In this document: in pieces, positions 1,711-15,314 of the stretch
Layout: the number at the start of each line of letters is the position of its first letter
How positions within the stretch are numbered: the stretch's first letter is position 1
Virus record (IMG/VR): IMGVR_UViG_3300017726_000089
Location: 1 to 23,318 of that record
From: a virus
Direction: 5' to 3' (one strand)
Length of the DNA: 23,318 nucleotides
Program-made: the position numbers and the translations under genes
Notes under the pieces: generated by a model
Seen by the model: only the letters and a program-made list of their open reading frames with translations
Told to the model about the DNA's origin: nothing
Databases searched by the model: none

Positions 1711-1742
1711 AGCGTTAGAATCACATCAGTTGATTATATAAA

Positions 1743-2453
1743 ATGTCCAAGCTATCCTTTAATGACTTTGAAAATTTTTTCAAGTATTATAAGTCTGAGT
1801 CACAGCAACAGGCTGGCGTCCGTATTCTTTACGAGCAGATGCGGGATGTATTAAAGGATGACGAGCACGATTGGATTAAAACTTACCGTAACAAGCCTAA
1901 GCTTACAATCAGCAACCCCCTTGCAGTGCCGTATCAAAGCCAGAATGATAACGCTAGCGGTACCGGATACCGTGAATGTTTCTCAAGTAGCTGTGCAATG
2001 GTCGCAATGTATTACGGTAAGATTGAGAATGACGATGCTTATAACGTAGTTAGGCAGAAGTATGGCGATAGTACCGATGCACAAGCACAAGTGAGAGCAT
2101 TGCGGTCACTTGGCCTTGAGGCTAATTTTATTAGCAACGGTTCAACAGCTGATTTAAAAGCAGCAATTGATGCGGGGCGTCCTGTGCCTGTCGGTTGGTT
2201 GCACCACGGATCTGCTTCTGCTCCTAGTGGAGGCGGACATTACTCTGTCGTGATTGGTTATACCGATAAAGCGTGGGTAGTGAATGACCCTAATGGGGAA
2301 GCTTTGTTGAGCAGCGGTGGTTATACCGATAATCTCGATGGTTCTAACCAGATCTACAGCTTTAAAAATTTCAATCCACGTTGGGTTGTCGAAGGTCCAA
2401 ATTCAGGATGGTATATGGATATTAGATTAGAGACGTTGACGCAAAAAAAGTAG
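1743..2453 (+). CDS. C39-like cysteine peptidase, N-terminal part of a putative two-domain endolysin
   Basis: This 236-residue frame has a helical N-terminal region (1-55) and a papain-like/C39_2 fold signature. VPYQSQ occurs at 62-67, RECFSSSCAMVAMYYG at 77-92 with the probable catalytic Cys79 in the CxxxSxAM pattern, GGGHYSVVIGY at 163-173 with His166, and VVNDPNG at 179-185 supplying the Asn/Asp. Such domains cleave peptides; beside a lysozyme, the likely substrate is the peptide part of peptidoglycan, which is inference. The frame ends at UAG immediately after A AAA AAG, and the -1 frame opens straight into a GH24 lysozyme. So it probably yields both this short form and a fusion of about 386 residues. 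No strong ribosome binding site precedes the ATG. It is inverted relative to the virion genes. Confidence 0.8.
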   Translation: MSKLSFNDFENFFKYYKSESQQQAGVRILYEQMRDVLKDDEHDWIKTYRNKPKLTISNPLAVPYQSQNDNASGTGYRECFSSSCAMVAMYYGKIENDDAYNVVRQKYGDSTDAQAQVRALRSLGLEANFISNGSTADLKAAIDAGRPVPVGWLHHGSASAPSGGGHYSVVIGYTDKAWVVNDPNGEALLSSGGYTDNLDGSNQIYSFKNFNPRWVVEGPNSGWYMDIRLETLTQKK

Positions 2454-2485
2454 ACGCGGGAGTTCAGACTACTGAGCCTACCCGC
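2444..2485 (+). promoter_or_regulatory. Putative programmed -1 frameshift signal (A AAA AAG plus hairpin)
   Basis: In the peptidase frame, the heptamer A AAA AAG (2444-2450) is followed directly by the UAG stop (2451-2453). After a five-base spacer comes a stem-loop at 2456-2485: outer stem GCGGG (2456-2460) with CCCGC (2481-2485), inner stem TTCAG (2463-2467) with CTGAG (2472-2476), and loop ACTA. This matches the known dnaX-type -1 frameshift layout of a slippery heptamer, a short spacer and a hairpin. Slippage by one base joins the peptidase to the lysozyme frame. Confidence 0.7.
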
Positions 2486-2902
2486 ACTTCACAAGATGGC
2501 ATTAACCTCATTAAGGAATTTGAGGGCTTGCGTTTAGAAAGCTACTATTGTGCAGCAAATGTGCTCACGATTGGCTATGGCCACACGAGTGGTGTCTATG
2601 AAGGTCAAACGATTACCGAGCATGATGCTGAAGAGCTATTGCGTAAAGACCTAATGTGGTTTGAGCAAGAGGTTAGTCGTTTGATTAGTGTGCCTTTAAC
2701 ACAGCACGAGTTTGATGCGATTGTCAGTTTCACATTTAATGTAGGCAGCGGTGCATTATCAGATAGCACCTTCCGTCGCCGAATTAATGCTGGCGAAGAT
2801 AAGGCTACGTGTTTTCGTGAAGAATTTGTACGCTGGATTTCAGGTGGAATACCAGGGTTAATCCGCAGGCGAGATGCTGAAGTAGAACTTGCTACTAACT
2901 AA
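2450..2902 (+). CDS. GH24 (T4-type) lysozyme domain, probably translated by -1 frameshift from the peptidase gene
   Basis: The frame is open from the UAG at 2423 to the TAA at 2902. After the slippery site it reads VDAGVQTTEPTRTSQDGINL, then IKEFEGLRLESYYCAANVLT and IGYGHTSGVYEG. The GH24 catalytic pattern E-x8-C-x5-T is intact: Glu in FEG, Cys in YYCAA, Thr in LTIGYGHT. Later helices include FDAIVSFTFNVGSGAL and FVRWISGGIPGLIRRRDAEVEL, typical of these endolysins, which cleave the MurNAc-GlcNAc bond. The only near-cognate start inside (TTG at 2528) lies after the catalytic Glu and would give a dead enzyme. No ATG or GTG exists upstream in this frame, so fusion by frameshift is the best explanation. 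A 5-bp duplication (ATTAGATTAG at 2421-2430) that shifted the frame is the alternative. Confidence 0.8.
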   Translation, partial: VDAGVQTTEPTRTSQDGINLIKEFEGLRLESYYCAANVLTIGYGHTSGVYEGQTITEHDAEELLRKDLMWFEQEVSRLISVPLTQHEFDAIVSFTFNVGSGALSDSTFRRRINAGEDKATCFREEFVRWISGGIPGLIRRRDAEVELATN

Positions 2903-2945
2903 CTTCTAATCTATTTCTAATTAGAAGCAGCGAGGCTGAAGTAAG

Positions 2946-2972
2946 GCTAGCTCTTAACTAGCTATCTTTTTT
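2946..2972 (+). terminator. Rho-independent terminator after the lysis module
   Basis: The plus strand has GCTAG (2946-2950), a seven-base loop and CTAGC (2958-2962), followed by TATC and six T residues. It lies 44 bases after the lysozyme stop and overlaps the end of the convergent 62-residue gene. A second inverted repeat, CTTCTAAT with ATTAGAAG (2903-2927), lies immediately after the lysozyme stop but has no T run. Confidence 0.6.
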
Positions 2973-3142
2973 ACTACCTCAGTTTCACTGACTGGGGTTT
3001 CTTCTTCTGGTGAAAACTCAAGAGTTTCTACTAGGTCTTCAAGTGCTCTTGCTGACATACTGATAAGGTTAGCATTATTAGTTGTTCCAGCTGCAGCGAA
3101 ACTATTGATTGCGTTTACAAGTTCTGATTTTTTACAAGACAT
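2954..3142 (-). CDS. Small phage protein, 62 residues, unknown
   Basis: I chose ATG at 3142 (MSCKKSELVNAINSFAAAGT) over an upstream TTG at 3160, whose only purine-rich stretch touches the start codon. The product is a small acidic helical protein: a helix at 4-17, a second at about 24-42 (NLISMSARALEDLVETLEF), then an acidic Glu/Pro-rich tail. I have an impression of similar small proteins in other cyanophages but cannot name a family. It converges on the lysozyme gene, and its 3' end overlaps the plus-strand terminator. Confidence 0.6.
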   Translation of the reverse strand: MSCKKSELVNAINSFAAAGTTNNANLISMSARALEDLVETLEFSPEEETPVSETEVVKKIAS

Positions 3143-3261: not shown

Positions 3262-4974
3262 TTAGTTGCTACCTACTTCGAGTGATGTGACTTTTGCTTC
3301 AAGTGCTTCAATGCGCGATACTGCTTCTTGTAAGGCGGCTGTGAGGGTTGCTACTACGTGGGAAGCATCAACACCCTGTAAAACTGGTTCACCATCTGCA
3401 TCTACTTCGTCTTTCACACCAGATACTGCTGCAGGAATAACCTCTTGCAGTTCGTGGGCAATGAATCCGACTTGTGTAGAGTTAGCATTGCCGATGAAGT
3501 TGTAGCTAACAGGCTTCAATTGCTTAAGAGCTTGAATGCCTCCTGTATAATCAACGATGTTCTCCTTAGTTCTGTAATCAGATGTGTTCTGATAGAGGAT
3601 AGAACCAGTACTAGCTTGCCAGAAGATAGCACCACGAGTAGATGATGCACTACCAACACGAATTGACATGATGTATTGACTGGCAGGGGAGCTAGTACTC
3701 TTGTTGCCATTTATTGAAATAACATCGGAAGTACTCCTGGTTTCCAAGCGGCAGGCAACCTGTTGACTGGAAGTCGCAAAGACGTCTAACTGGGCTCTTT
3801 CTGTATAGCTTTGACCAGAATTATTGGCAGTAGTTTTACCAACGTAGAGGACATTCTCGGAACCCGAGACAGAGATTACAGGAGTGGAGGAAGCAGCAAA
3901 GATATTTGTAGTTACCGTTGCGTGGTCAGGGTTTACTTCAACTTCGGATGGACTAATCTTAAACCGGTTATTACCATTAGACACGAAAGCCAGCGTTCCA
4001 GCGTTGTTATTATATCCCAAAATTCCAGTATTGCCATCGCCTTGAATACCGATAGATGGAGATGTGTGGGTGCCAACCTTCATCAAGATCTGGCCACTCA
4101 TTGCAATAGTTTGGGCATTTAGGGTTCCCGTTATAGTGTCGCCACTTTTTTTGACGTATCGCCCGTCAGTGTATGTGGTATTTAAGGATAAAGTTCTAGT
4201 TGTAGTTGCACTTTGGTTAGCTCTAGCATTATTGCCACTTGCTGTAATACCTGTTCCGCCATTGATCTGAATTGCTCCGTTACCAGGAGTGACTTGTGTA
4301 TTATCATTCTTTAAAGTAATGGTGGTATCACCTGATTGGTTAACCGTGAAGGTTTGATTGGTCGTACCAGGTTGAACGATTGTGATTTTACCATTATTAG
4401 CAGCTGCTGGAATAGTTGGTTTATTACTTAAGTCCGTGTAACGAATAACAGGGAGAGTTAAAGTGGATGATGAAATCTGATTGGCTGTAAATGATCCTAT
4501 TGCCAATGCTCCTTCTCCCGCAGTTTGAATCGTTAGTGCTCCGTTACCAGGAGTGACTTGTGTATTATCATTCTTTAAAGTAATAGTGGTATTACCTGAT
4601 TGGTTAACCGTGAAGGTTTGATTGGTCGTACCAGGTTGAACGATTGTGATTTTACCATTATTTGCTGCAGCTGGAATACTAGGCGTTCCGCTTAAGTCTC
4701 CATATCGAATAGTAGGAAGAGTTAAGGTAGATGCTTGACTCTGATTGGCTGTAAATGATCCTGTTGCCGATGCTCCTTCTCCCGCAGTTTGAATCGTTAG
4801 TGCTCCATTAGCACCAGCGATACGTATAATATTATTGTCACTAGCTTTTAAGAATACAGCAGGATCGTTTACGTTGTAGTTAACGGCTAATTCACCATAC
4901 TCCATCTGTTCGGCAGAAGGTTCTTTTGCTGCGATATTAACTAATGCGATACTCTTCTTTAATTGAATTTTCAT
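3262..4974 (-). CDS. Tail fibre / host-recognition protein with C-terminal S74 intramolecular chaperone
   Basis: This 570-residue protein is modular. Residues 1-55 (KKSIALVNIAAKEPSAEQ, EYGELAVNYN, FLKASDNNIIRI) form the N-terminal attachment motif I associate with cyanophage fibres. Residues about 57-232 are two near-identical 88-residue beta-rich repeats. DGRYVKKSGDTITGTL (about 270-285) is a common fibre motif. The C-terminus is a peptidase_S74 chaperone: SDYRTKENI starts at Ser465 with Lys470, the known self-cleavage Ser/Lys pair, followed by VGFIAHELQEVIP and a final coiled coil (SRIEALEAKVTSLE). In this family the chaperone drives trimerisation and is cleaved off. A strong ribosome binding site (GAGGCGGAA) precedes the ATG, and a terminator follows the gene. 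It probably binds the host surface; the receptor is unknown. Confidence 0.85.
   Translation of the reverse strand: MKIQLKKSIALVNIAAKEPSAEQMEYGELAVNYNVNDPAVFLKASDNNIIRIAGANGALTIQTAGEGASATGSFTANQSQASTLTLPTIRYGDLSGTPSIPAAANNGKITIVQPGTTNQTFTVNQSGNTTITLKNDNTQVTPGNGALTIQTAGEGALAIGSFTANQISSSTLTLPVIRYTDLSNKPTIPAAANNGKITIVQPGTTNQTFTVNQSGDTTITLKNDNTQVTPGNGAIQINGGTGITASGNNARANQSATTTRTLSLNTTYTDGRYVKKSGDTITGTLNAQTIAMSGQILMKVGTHTSPSIGIQGDGNTGILGYNNNAGTLAFVSNGNNRFKISPSEVEVNPDHATVTTNIFAASSTPVISVSGSENVLYVGKTTANNSGQSYTERAQLDVFATSSQQVACRLETRSTSDVISINGNKSTSSPASQYIMSIRVGSASSTRGAIFWQASTGSILYQNTSDYRTKENIVDYTGGIQALKQLKPVSYNFIGNANSTQVGFIAHELQEVIPAAVSGVKDEVDADGEPVLQGVDASHVVATLTAALQEAVSRIEALEAKVTSLEVGSN
4277..4804 (-). 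repeat. Two tandem 264-bp repeats in the tail fibre gene
   Basis: The copies are at 4277-4540 and 4541-4804, exactly 264 bases (88 codons) apart. Landmarks such as CCGTTACCAG recur at 4277 and 4541, and CAGTTTGAAT at 4521 and 4785. The two halves are nearly identical at the downstream ends and more diverged around the LPxIRYxDLS segment. The copy number could change by unequal recombination without breaking the frame. Confidence 0.85.
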
Positions 4975-11218: not shown

Positions 11219-12379
11219 TCAATATACGAAAGAGTAACCAACCGTGATGAAATCCTTATTAAGGGTTTCAAAACCGGCAAACAGACTCCAGATCATAATG
11301 ATGAAACGTGAGAAGTCATCATTGTTGTTCAGAAGAATCTGAGCGTTATTACCACCGATACCCACGCCAACAGCTTGGGGACCGAAGAAGATAAGCTGCG
11401 ATGCTGTGTAATCGGCAGCAGAAGCGCTTTCATCTGTAATAACCAAGTTGTAATTGGTTTCAGGAAGGTTGGTGGACTCGAACCAACGGACACCCTCAAA
11501 GAGGAAGCCAGTAGGCATTACGGGCTGACCAGCCACAAAACCGGCTTGACCATAAGCAGGACCCATTCCTTGATAGAAATTAGCGTTAGGTGCCTGGTTA
11601 GGTTGCATGGGGTTAATCATGCCGTTGCCGGGATAGCGAGCAATCTCGCGGAAGTCAGAATTCTGACGAAGGTGCATCATTGCCGTTGGGTCAACGATAC
11701 AGCGGTAGTAACCATCAGAGAAGGTTGGGACATTACGCTTACGCAAGTCCTTCACAACTTCGAGAAGGTCGGTAGTTACATCAAACTTGGCAGAATCGCC
11801 AGAATCATAAGTAACTCCAAGGGTGCCACCAGTAGCTCCTTTTTCTTTGCCACCGGGAAGGTAGTAACCGCCTTGCTCATTCGAAGCCTTGCCAGCGGCC
11901 TCAGCCTTAAGCAGTTCGTTTGCAAAGACGCGGTCACGCCAACGACGATAGTCATCAAGCAGCGTCAAGCTACCGATGGACTGGTGAAATACATTCAAAT
12001 TACCTGTATCAAGCAGCAGACGTTGTGCTGTGATCAGGGTTTCACGAGCAACCTTGAAAGTTGAAGGCTGAGCGCTGTCGCGGGTATCGGCAGGGCCTGT
12101 ATATTCCCTTAATGTCACTAATACCTTATCTTTGACAATGTTGCGTGCTGAAGCGGTTCCGAGTGTTTGATCGGCGGTCCGCTCGCGGGACTCCTTGGTA
12201 CCAGGCTTACCCCAGAAGCGGTAACGATCAAGCTGCACGGTCTGGCCGGGCTGCTTACTGAAATCGTGAACTACCACTGGTTCTACCGCCATCTCAATGA
12301 TGTAGGCAGGATGAGGACGGTAAAGTTCTGCACCAAGAAGCTTTGGAAAATCATTCGGTTTATCTAAGACTTTCGTCAA
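11219..12379 (-). CDS. Major capsid protein (probably the 3' exon of an intron-containing gene)
   Basis: This frame of 386 codons has the look of an HK97-fold shell protein: RPHPAYIIEMAVEPVVVHDF near the start, YRFWGKPGTKESRER, a helical spine (ARETLITAQRLLLDTGNLNV), and YRCIVDPTAMMHLRQNSDFR followed by EIARYPGNGMI, a pattern I associate with N4/T7-type capsids. Its place between scaffold-like and head-completion genes agrees. The frame opens only with a TTG at 12379, has no ribosome binding site, and lies immediately after the 3' part of a group I intron core. P9.0/P9 pairing suggests splicing near 12356, so codons before AAT GAT TTT (12355 down) may be intron. The true N-terminus would come from a 5' exon that I could not locate. 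Confidence 0.8.
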   Translation of the reverse strand: MTKVLDKPNDFPKLLGAELYRPHPAYIIEMAVEPVVVHDFSKQPGQTVQLDRYRFWGKPGTKESRERTADQTLGTASARNIVKDKVLVTLREYTGPADTRDSAQPSTFKVARETLITAQRLLLDTGNLNVFHQSIGSLTLLDDYRRWRDRVFANELLKAEAAGKASNEQGGYYLPGGKEKGATGGTLGVTYDSGDSAKFDVTTDLLEVVKDLRKRNVPTFSDGYYRCIVDPTAMMHLRQNSDFREIARYPGNGMINPMQPNQAPNANFYQGMGPAYGQAGFVAGQPVMPTGFLFEGVRWFESTNLPETNYNLVITDESASAADYTASQLIFFGPQAVGVGIGGNNAQILLNNNDDFSRFIIMIWSLFAGFETLNKDFITVGYSFVY

Positions 12380-12600
12380 AGGCCGGACTATCTCTTCAAC
12401 AAGTACATCTTGTTGCTGGGCGCTGATCTGGTCTTACGAAACACGCTTGTTTCCCCCAGTAGTCTCTGCACCTTCCTCACAAGTTCGTGTGAGGCTTGGC
12501 TCAGGATTAGCATCGTCTATACGTTAAGCCTTCCCTGAATTCACCCAGTTTTAAATCGACAGGAGAGCTACACTCTATCGATCCACATTGATCGCTAACT
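12356..12600 (-). ncRNA. Group I intron catalytic core, subgroup IA-like
   Basis: The minus strand contains the full ordered set of core elements. P2 hairpin at 12555-12582 (ATCGATA with TGTCGAT); P3 5' CTGGG at 12544-12548; P element AATTCAGGGAAGGC at 12528-12541; Q element AATCCTGAGCCAAGC at 12494-12508 (P4 TCAGG with CCTGA); P6 hairpin CCTCACA with TGTGAGG at 12475-12494; R element GTGCAGAGACTA at 12460-12471; extra P7.1/P7.2 hairpins at 12428-12459; P3 3' CCCAG at 12416-12420; P8 CAACAAG with CTTGTTG at 12397-12415; S element AAGAGATAGTCC at 12385-12396 (P7 GACTA with TAGTC). A GAC-GAAA-GTC P9 and CGG with CCG P9.0 place the 3' end near 12356. P1 and the 5' splice site are not resolved; CTAACT (12636-12641) with AGTTAG (12595-12600) is one candidate. 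Confidence 0.88.
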
Positions 12601-12667
12601 CCAAAACTAAAATTTATAAGTGACTCGACATGTCACATAGTTAGATACTAATAGTTATATTGGGTGT

Positions 12668-13201
12668 GTGAAAGATATACCCGAAAATACTGTGGAAAGA
12701 TTTATTGATACTAGCGAATGGATACCTGTCCATACACTTGCTGGATTTGAATGTGCAATTGAATACTATGTTAATCGCTCTGGTCAAGTCAAAAGTTCTA
12801 AAGGTAATGTCGAGAGAATACTTAAATACAAGTGGCACAAGGAAGGATATCCTATGGTGACGCTTACTCAACGTATTGGTAGAAAGAAACCTCTCTATGT
12901 TTGTGTACATAAGCTTGTTGCTCTTGCTTTCTTAGGGCAACCTCCTACACCTTACGGACGTGGCAAAGGTTGCACAATGGTTGATCATATTGACGAAGAC
13001 AAATCAAATTGCCATGTAGATAATCTACGCTGGGTTACTCGTACAGAGAACAATACTAAATTTAAATACCAACGTAGACCTAAGAATACTCCTGAACAAG
13101 CTGCTGCTGCAAAGGAGCGCCAACGTATATCAAAGCGTGACTATATGCGTCGTCTCAGAGATAAACAGAAAGCAGTTAAAATAGAAGAAAGTGATACCTA
13201 A
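12668..13201 (+). CDS. HNH homing endonuclease (NUMOD4 plus HNH)
   Basis: This 177-residue protein on the opposite strand to its neighbours starts with GTG at 12668. Residues about 16-45 (EWIPVHTLAGFECAIEYYVN, SGQVKSSKGN) match NUMOD4, and about 77-129 the HNH core (VCVHKLVALAFLG, MVDHIDEDKSNCHVDNLRWV, TENN), with His/Asp/Asn metal and catalytic residues present. The C-terminus is a basic helix (RISKRDYMRRLRDKQKAVK). Such enzymes nick or cut intron-less or empty alleles. It lies beside, and antisense to, a group I intron lacking its own sense-strand endonuclease gene, so it may serve that intron's mobility. No clear ribosome binding site is seen. Confidence 0.85.
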   Translation: MKDIPENTVERFIDTSEWIPVHTLAGFECAIEYYVNRSGQVKSSKGNVERILKYKWHKEGYPMVTLTQRIGRKKPLYVCVHKLVALAFLGQPPTPYGRGKGCTMVDHIDEDKSNCHVDNLRWVTRTENNTKFKYQRRPKNTPEQAAAAKERQRISKRDYMRRLRDKQKAVKIEESDT

Positions 13202-14357: not shown

Positions 14358-15314
14358 TTAAAGATATTCACTTAGATTTTCTGATTGCTCACGAATTGCA
14401 CGCAGCGCCTTGTTCTCTAGCGTTCGGACACGGTCTCTGCTCATATTAAGCACTTGGCCTATAGCAGTCATTGACATTGGCTCAAGGATGTCCTCACCGA
14501 TTCCATATCGCATACGAACTACTGCAGCCTGCATTTCAGGTAAATCACAGATAATTTCACGCATATCATCTTTTACAGATTGACGTTCCAGCAACATCTC
14601 TGGTAGTTGCGTTTCATCCTCTAGTAAATCTATAAGTGCTGTGTCGCGGTTTTCACCAATTTTAATCTCAAGTGATGTTGGCTGACGTGCTTTGCACATC
14701 AAGTCTTTTATTTCATCTACAGTAAAGTCAAGGTAATCGGCAAGTTGGAAGACGTTAGGCATCTCACCATTAATTTGGCTCAGTTCCCGTTGAGCTTTCT
14801 TGAGTTTGTTGAGGTTTTCTGTAACGTGAATTGGTAAGCGTATTGCCCTCGATTTCTCCGCAATGGCCCTCGTGATGCCTTGGCGTATCCACCAATAAGC
14901 ATAGGTACTAAACTTATAGCCACGGCCAGGGTCAAACTTCTCGACACCACGGACGAGACCAATTGTTCCTTCTTGAATGATGTCCAAGAGTTCCATATTT
15001 CTCTTCGTGTACTTTTTAGCAACAGAAACCACGAGTCTGAGATTTGCCGTGACCATTTTGTCTTTAGCTTTCGTACCTTCACGTATATCTCGTCGTAGTG
15101 CTTTTTGGTCATAGTCAAAACAGGTAGCTAACTCTGTGTTATCAATTTGACGATTGTTTTGTTCCGCAAGTTCTTTACGCTTGCCTTCAATTTCCATTAA
15201 CCGTTGCACCTTACGACCTAGGAGAATCTCTTCATCGTGCCCAAGTAGTGGAATACGTCCGATATCACGCAGATATGACCGGACAGAATCCCCTGAATAT
15301 TTTGGTGATGACAT
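14358..15314 (-). CDS. Sigma-70 family RNA polymerase sigma factor, cyanobacterial group-2-like
   Basis: This 318-residue protein carries all regions of a primary-type sigma factor except the non-conserved 1.1 part. Region 1.2 is at 8-40 (DSVRSYLRDIGRIPLLGHDE). Region 2 is at 85-163, with LRLVVSVAKKYTKRNMELLD, EGTIGLVRGVEKFDPGRGYK and the -10 melting motif FSTYAYWWIRQ at 135-145. Region 3 is at about 165-240 (SLEIKIGENRDTALIDLLED). Region 4 is at 250-312, with the -35 helix-turn-helix SMTAIGQVLNMSRDRVRTLE. Length and sequence match cyanobacterial group 2 factors, suggesting capture from a host. It would bind host core polymerase and redirect it, probably to phage promoters. It has a near-consensus promoter of its own and sits inside the virion gene block, unlike the short gp55-type late factors of T4-like cyanophages. 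Confidence 0.95.
   Translation of the reverse strand: MSSPKYSGDSVRSYLRDIGRIPLLGHDEEILLGRKVQRLMEIEGKRKELAEQNNRQIDNTELATCFDYDQKALRRDIREGTKAKDKMVTANLRLVVSVAKKYTKRNMELLDIIQEGTIGLVRGVEKFDPGRGYKFSTYAYWWIRQGITRAIAEKSRAIRLPIHVTENLNKLKKAQRELSQINGEMPNVFQLADYLDFTVDEIKDLMCKARQPTSLEIKIGENRDTALIDLLEDETQLPEMLLERQSVKDDMREIICDLPEMQAAVVRMRYGIGEDILEPMSMTAIGQVLNMSRDRVRTLENKALRAIREQSENLSEYL

Follow-up and report, generated by a model that had tools for sequence, protein, structure and literature searches.

The window analysed here is the whole 23,318-nucleotide stretch of the virus record IMGVR_UViG_3300017726_000089 (IMG/VR). It contains a gene for a C39-like peptidase that ends in a slippery heptamer, and a GH24 lysozyme follows in the −1 frame. 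The features of this locus, and two others in the window, are as follows.

1716..1721, plus strand: TAGAAT, probable −10 element of the gene's own promoter, at a position conserved in relatives.
1743..2453, plus strand: C39-like peptidase, zero frame, 236 amino acids, from ATG 1743 to stop TAG 2451-2453, with the end CAA AAA AAG TAG.
2421..2430, plus strand: ATTAG ATTAG, a lineage-specific 5-bp duplication (repeat ATTAGATTAG), seen in the alignment with locus L250.
2444..2450, plus strand: slippery heptamer A AAA AAG in the zero frame; a heptamer of the same class lies at the same place in 8/8 loci.
2450..2902, plus strand: −1 frame extension, linker and GH24 lysozyme; GTA would be the first new codon after slippage.
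2451..2455, plus strand: spacer TAGAC, 5 nt, made up of the stop codon TAG and 2 nt; 5 nt in 7/8 loci and 7 nt in L005.
2456..2485, plus strand: predicted stimulatory hairpin in two parts, −16.8 kcal/mol, z −3.4.
2945..2998, plus strand: two terminator-like hairpins with T-runs, 3' of the lysozyme, from a terminator scan.
12364-12625 (minus strand) and 12668-13201 (plus strand): group I intron of the capsid region (Rfam RF00028) and, on the other strand, an HNH/NUMOD4 endonuclease ORF.
14358-15314, minus strand: sigma-70 factor with regions 1.2, 2, 3 and 4.

The major capsid protein and the terminase of the window are 67% and 54% identical, respectively, to those of Synechococcus phage S-EIV1, and an S-EIV1-type capsid is common to most of the group of related loci described below. 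Judged from these relatives, the host is likely to be a cyanobacterium such as Synechococcus. A megablast search of the whole window against isolate phages returned no match. The group I intron (90.8 bits) overlaps the major capsid ORF (11219-12379) at its 5' end; the capsid gene probably has a short upstream exon. In phage S-CBS1 an annotated group 2 sigma factor adjoins the C39 endolysin gene. Within the tail-fibre-like gene at 3262-4974, positions 4273-4810 consist of tandem duplicated segments of ~270 bp that are ~89% identical.

The peptidase matches Pfam family Peptidase_C39_2 (PF13529) at 5.3e-13 and 50.2 bits, against a cut-off of 24. Its triad Cys79, His166 and Asp182, a papain-like Cys-His-Asp arrangement, shows no variation in 26 relatives. 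An AlphaFold model of the C39 part built with these relatives has a pLDDT of 89.7; the relatives were needed, as prediction from the single sequence reached a pLDDT of 32 only. The model resembles the C39-like peptidase 3erv (Z 16.1, rmsd 3.1 over 158 residues) and the pseudomurein endoisopeptidase PeiR (Z 15.7), and the predicted structure has the C39/papain-like fold. A PDB sequence search with the C39 profile found nothing. From the likeness to PeiR and the fusions of such domains with glycan hydrolases, we infer that the C39 domain may cleave cell-wall peptides. The modelled fold is complete upstream of the shift site, before the last few residues, and the close stand-alone relatives L302, L303 and L304 comprise just the peptidase and terminate near the same residue. 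For these reasons, and because the triad is invariant, the 236-residue product is plausibly an enzyme in its own right. Further stand-alone C39 genes, 51–54% identical to the window peptidase, sit in picocyanobacterial genomes (Cyanobium and Synechococcus; L251, L253, L256–L260, L264 and L265), twice in strain SynAce01, and may belong to prophages or to the host.

The −1 frame stays open between 2426 and a TAA at 2900-2902 and contains a Phage_lysozyme domain at ~2513-2881 (PF00959, GH24; 4.1e-41 and 140.7 bits against a curated cut-off of 22.3). It carries the GH24 catalytic motif E-8-D/C-5-T in the form E-8-C-5-T (FEGLRLESYYCAANVLT), which agrees with the earlier, sequence-only reading that the shifted frame enters a lysozyme with its catalytic residues. 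The motif is present in 7/8 loci, L095 having Ser in place of Thr. The lysozyme was also said to lack a usable start codon, and the earliest ATG, GTG or TTG of its frame is indeed a TTG that lies beyond the catalytic Glu, at 2528. The computed products are a peptidase of 236 residues and a peptidase-lysozyme of 386 residues. With regard to selection and SIGNIFICANCE of both products, dN/dS was 0.06–0.17 in both domains where dS was measurable and 0.09–0.16 in the GH24 domain (0.09 for the window against L250), which shows that both domains are under purifying selection. Contigs of the group of 77, 67 and 57 kb have a single GH24 gene each; there is thus no other source of lysozyme in those sequences. 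In an 80-kb contig that carries a stand-alone C39 gene, no GH24 domain was found.

The two coding regions are probably transcribed together. All eight loci with this junction, and three stand-alone C39 relatives, have a TAGAAT box ~20–26 nt ahead of the C39 start, and the motif is not enriched across the window. Because this box precedes the peptidase and the terminator-like hairpins come after the lysozyme, peptidase and lysozyme look like one transcription unit. The interval 1690-1743, between the C39 gene and a divergent upstream gene, contains TAGAAT boxes in both orientations, arranged as ATTCTA-n5-TAGAAT in L094, L096 and L302, and is probably a conserved promoter, possibly one that acts in both directions.

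Relatives were gathered by scanning viral and genome contigs. Eight distinct loci with the order C39-then-GH24 were obtained, all metagenomic: the window (with the near-identical contig L001), L250, L095 (identical to L002, with L023 in the same group), L003, L005, L096, L094 and L004. The phages concerned belong to two or more unrelated lineages, and GH24 lies in the −1 frame in every one of the eight loci. The reverse order, GH24-then-C39, was found in about 50 full loci, every one an in-frame fusion; in L193 only the N-terminal part of a C39 protein is joined in frame to GH24. Additional searches with the C39 domains of L004 and L094, the GH24 domain of L094 and the signal as a DNA pattern revealed no frameshift groups beyond the eight. 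Some sequences contain breaks of another kind. The C39 gene of L005 (1768-2478) has an internal stop, due to error or decay, and L303 and records G001 and G010 have internal stops or frame breaks in otherwise conserved genes; the breaks in the 3300050343 contigs have the appearance of errors from assembly or long reads. In S-CREM2 (L089, 2492-3696) the annotation gives a C39 domain and the downstream part of an endolysin as two genes that overlap in different frames, with no clear slippery heptamer at the junction, which may reflect a sequencing indel or another case of recoding.

At the junction of the window the peptidase frame ends in A AAA AAG UAG, the heptamer of E. coli dnaX, exactly as the sequence-only reading had it. 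The heptamers of the eight loci are A_AAA_AAG (six), G_GGA_AAG (L004) and C_CCA_AAG (L094), and the distance from the end of the heptamer to the zero-frame stop is 0 or 3 nt throughout. Since the two open frames overlap by just 13–34 nt in seven of the eight loci, the frame switch must occur within that short overlap. Such a terminal placement is infrequent: of the 4571 long open frames that the fetched loci contain, 86 have a terminal in-frame XXXYYYZ heptamer when family members are counted, and among 68 stand-alone C39 genes a terminal slippery heptamer was found in none. All three heptamers are highly shift-prone in E. coli, where the presence of a single tRNA-Lys(UUU) is the condition that makes an AAG codon in the A site slippery (2016 review, PMC5009743). 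In Synechococcus SynAce01, which serves here as a stand-in for the host, an Rfam tRNA scan and ARAGORN identified 44 tRNA genes and among these a single tRNA-Lys, of anticodon UUU. That the bases of the heptamer change while its predicted shiftiness is kept is the strongest single argument for frameshifting.

Downstream of the heptamer, GCGGG (2456-2460) pairs with CCCGC (2481-2485) in the outer stem and GTTCAG (2462-2467) with CTGAGC (2472-2477) in the inner stem of the predicted hairpin. The spacer and the outer stem are as originally described, but the inner stem is one pair longer. The z score of −3.4 was obtained with dinucleotide shuffles and becomes −4.2 with synonymous-codon shuffles, which preserve the encoded protein; among segments of its length across the window, the hairpin ranks in the top 0.5%. 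A hairpin is predicted in all eight loci (−15 to −26 kcal/mol, z −1.3 to −5.7), that of L004 (z −1.3) being the sole weak one. Synonymous-codon shuffles of the other loci gave p <0.03, except for L005 (p 0.06) and L004 (p 0.17). L094 and L096 have one common hairpin, in which three of eleven pairs show two-sided compensatory change. In the four window-type sequences the stems are almost invariant and devoid of two-sided covariation, so that covariation is uninformative there. Between relatives the codons of the hairpin show no synonymous differences, as compared with ~40% in the rest of the lysozyme; for the window and L250, 8/8 codons are kept in the hairpin and 64/102 elsewhere in the lysozyme.

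The junction combines the features by which X_XXY_YYZ −1 frameshift signals are recognised: a heptamer, a predicted structure ~5–9 nt downstream of it, a conserved new frame that lacks a start, and conservation of the arrangement. Since 8/8 loci have the −1 layout, a tandem-slip heptamer just ahead of the C39 stop and a hairpin prediction, the comparison upholds the proposal of programmed frameshifting made from the single sequence. We consider it very likely that this endolysin gene is expressed in two forms by programmed −1 ribosomal frameshifting. Ribosomes would translate the C39-like peptidase and reach A_AAA_AAG against the hairpin 5 nt downstream. Most of them would stop at the adjoining UAG and release the complete 236-residue peptidase. 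In some, both tRNAs would slip back by one base and the lysozyme would be read, which would give a peptidase-muramidase of 386 residues (~43 kDa). Together the two forms would attack the cell wall at its peptide stems and its glycan, in proportions that depend on how efficient the shift is.

An in-frame mRNA could instead be made by slippage of RNA polymerase on the run of A residues, which counts seven in the window and six in five other loci. The corresponding sequences of L004 (GGGAAAG) and L094 (CCCAAAG) have runs of three, however, and runs of three are too short for transcriptional slippage; a heptamer suited to tandem tRNA slippage is nevertheless kept in both. The RNA hairpin 5–7 nt downstream also fits stimulation of the ribosome. 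Polymerase slippage is therefore improbable, and unlikely as a general explanation given GGGAAAG and CCCAAAG. A shade less probable still is the synthesis of the lysozyme as a separate protein, by reinitiation or from an internal start near the C39 stop. A start codon of the −1 frame does lie ~31–34 nt upstream in L094 (ATG) and L096 (GTG), where it might allow separate initiation, but the remaining six of the eight loci have no ATG, GTG or TTG ahead of the catalytic Glu, and separate initiation would leave the conserved shift-prone heptamers and the hairpin unexplained.

Least probable, and to our mind very improbable, is that one fused gene was disrupted by a recent 5-bp duplication (ATTAGATTAG) and that the heptamer is coincidental. 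This rival had been raised together with the frameshift proposal and is correct in its premise: the duplication is real, and removal of one copy from the window yields a continuous peptidase-lysozyme frame. It fails in that the seven other groups lack both the duplication and a continuous frame; all show the same two-frame layout with a heptamer, and the uninterrupted frame that had been named as contrary evidence was seen in none of them. Moreover, the window differs from L250 (86% identical) by the duplication (+5) and by one additional A in the A-run (+1). The net change is +6, so that the C39 frame still reaches A_AAA_AAG UAG and the layout is preserved. Purifying selection on GH24 likewise argues against a broken gene. 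Because relatives without the duplication are two-frame and the extra A offsets the duplication, the layout was kept rather than created: comparison of these sequences points to the two-frame layout as the older state and to the duplication as one half of a pair of changes that maintained it. An in-frame fusion with a recent break is contradicted by the two-frame layout of the relatives, a pseudogene was also rejected, readthrough of the stop is ruled out by the lysozyme lying in another frame, and an assembly artefact by independent contigs, the near-identical L001 sharing the junction.

The two domains appear to differ in their history. The GH24 domains of all eight loci form one clade (SH-aLRT 95), and the eight loci are therefore not eight independent events. 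Their C39 partners are not one clade: stand-alone genes fall among them, and the C39 domain of L004 branches elsewhere. L004 itself is an unrelated siphovirus (portal phrog_145) with a distant C39 domain and a different heptamer. On these grounds, it seems that the lysozyme has become attached to, or detached from, more than one peptidase gene at this seam. It is possible, if somewhat doubtful, that the startless GH24 is a module able to combine with various C39 genes in unrelated phages, always via a shift-prone heptamer and hairpin, and that frameshifting at the seam has been selected for dosing. If so, selection would have favoured frameshifting as a means of dosing a second and more dangerous activity against the wall, and the shift would help to set the strength or the timing of lysis.

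To our knowledge, programmed frameshifting in tailed phages occurs chiefly in tail chaperones and in a small number of capsid genes. A conserved endolysin case would extend this list to lysis enzymes and would show a new route from one gene to two wall hydrolases at a fixed ratio. It would also offer three naturally interchanged heptamers with which frameshifting could be tested in cyanobacteria. Genes of this kind are easily mistaken in annotation for two separate genes or for one that is broken.

Among known systems, dnaX (tau/gamma) shares with the window the heptamer A_AAA_AAG, a downstream stem-loop and the decoding of AAG by a single tRNA-Lys(UUU). It differs in that the shift gives the short form in dnaX and would give the long form here; in the window no upstream Shine-Dalgarno-like stimulator is established, and the gene encodes a lysis enzyme. 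The lambda genes G/GT also belong to a phage and gain a C-terminal domain by a −1 shift shortly before their first ORF ends; their heptamer, G_GGA_AAG, is that of L004. Their product is a tail chaperone, by contrast with a lysis enzyme whose extension is a second catalytic domain. A Lactococcus lysin studied in 1994 is reportedly spread over two overlapping genes, a likeness in gene layout. With reference to that study, lysins are named among the genes known to contain a frameshift (PMC10885494). This qualifies the earlier statement that no endolysin with such a layout is known, which otherwise stands inasmuch as no description of an endolysin with a frameshift joining two catalytic domains was found in the open-access literature. 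LysIME-EF1 and CTP1L also produce a long and a short polypeptide from a single endolysin gene, through an internal start (PMC9430671). Their short form is the C-terminal wall-binding part, made from an in-frame internal start. In the window, by contrast, the short form would be the N-terminal enzyme and the second form requires a change of frame; an in-frame internal start was not found, the second domain lying in the other frame and being startless in 6/8 loci. Finally, the same C39 family is found in the endolysins of Synechococcus phages, joined to wall hydrolases: S-N03 has C39 with a C-terminal domain, S-CBS1 a glucosaminidase-C39 protein, and S-CBP2 and S-SRP02 stand-alone C39. These are single-frame proteins, none with a frameshift junction. 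Compared with all of these systems the signal described here is classical, and its use for a bifunctional endolysin appears to be new.
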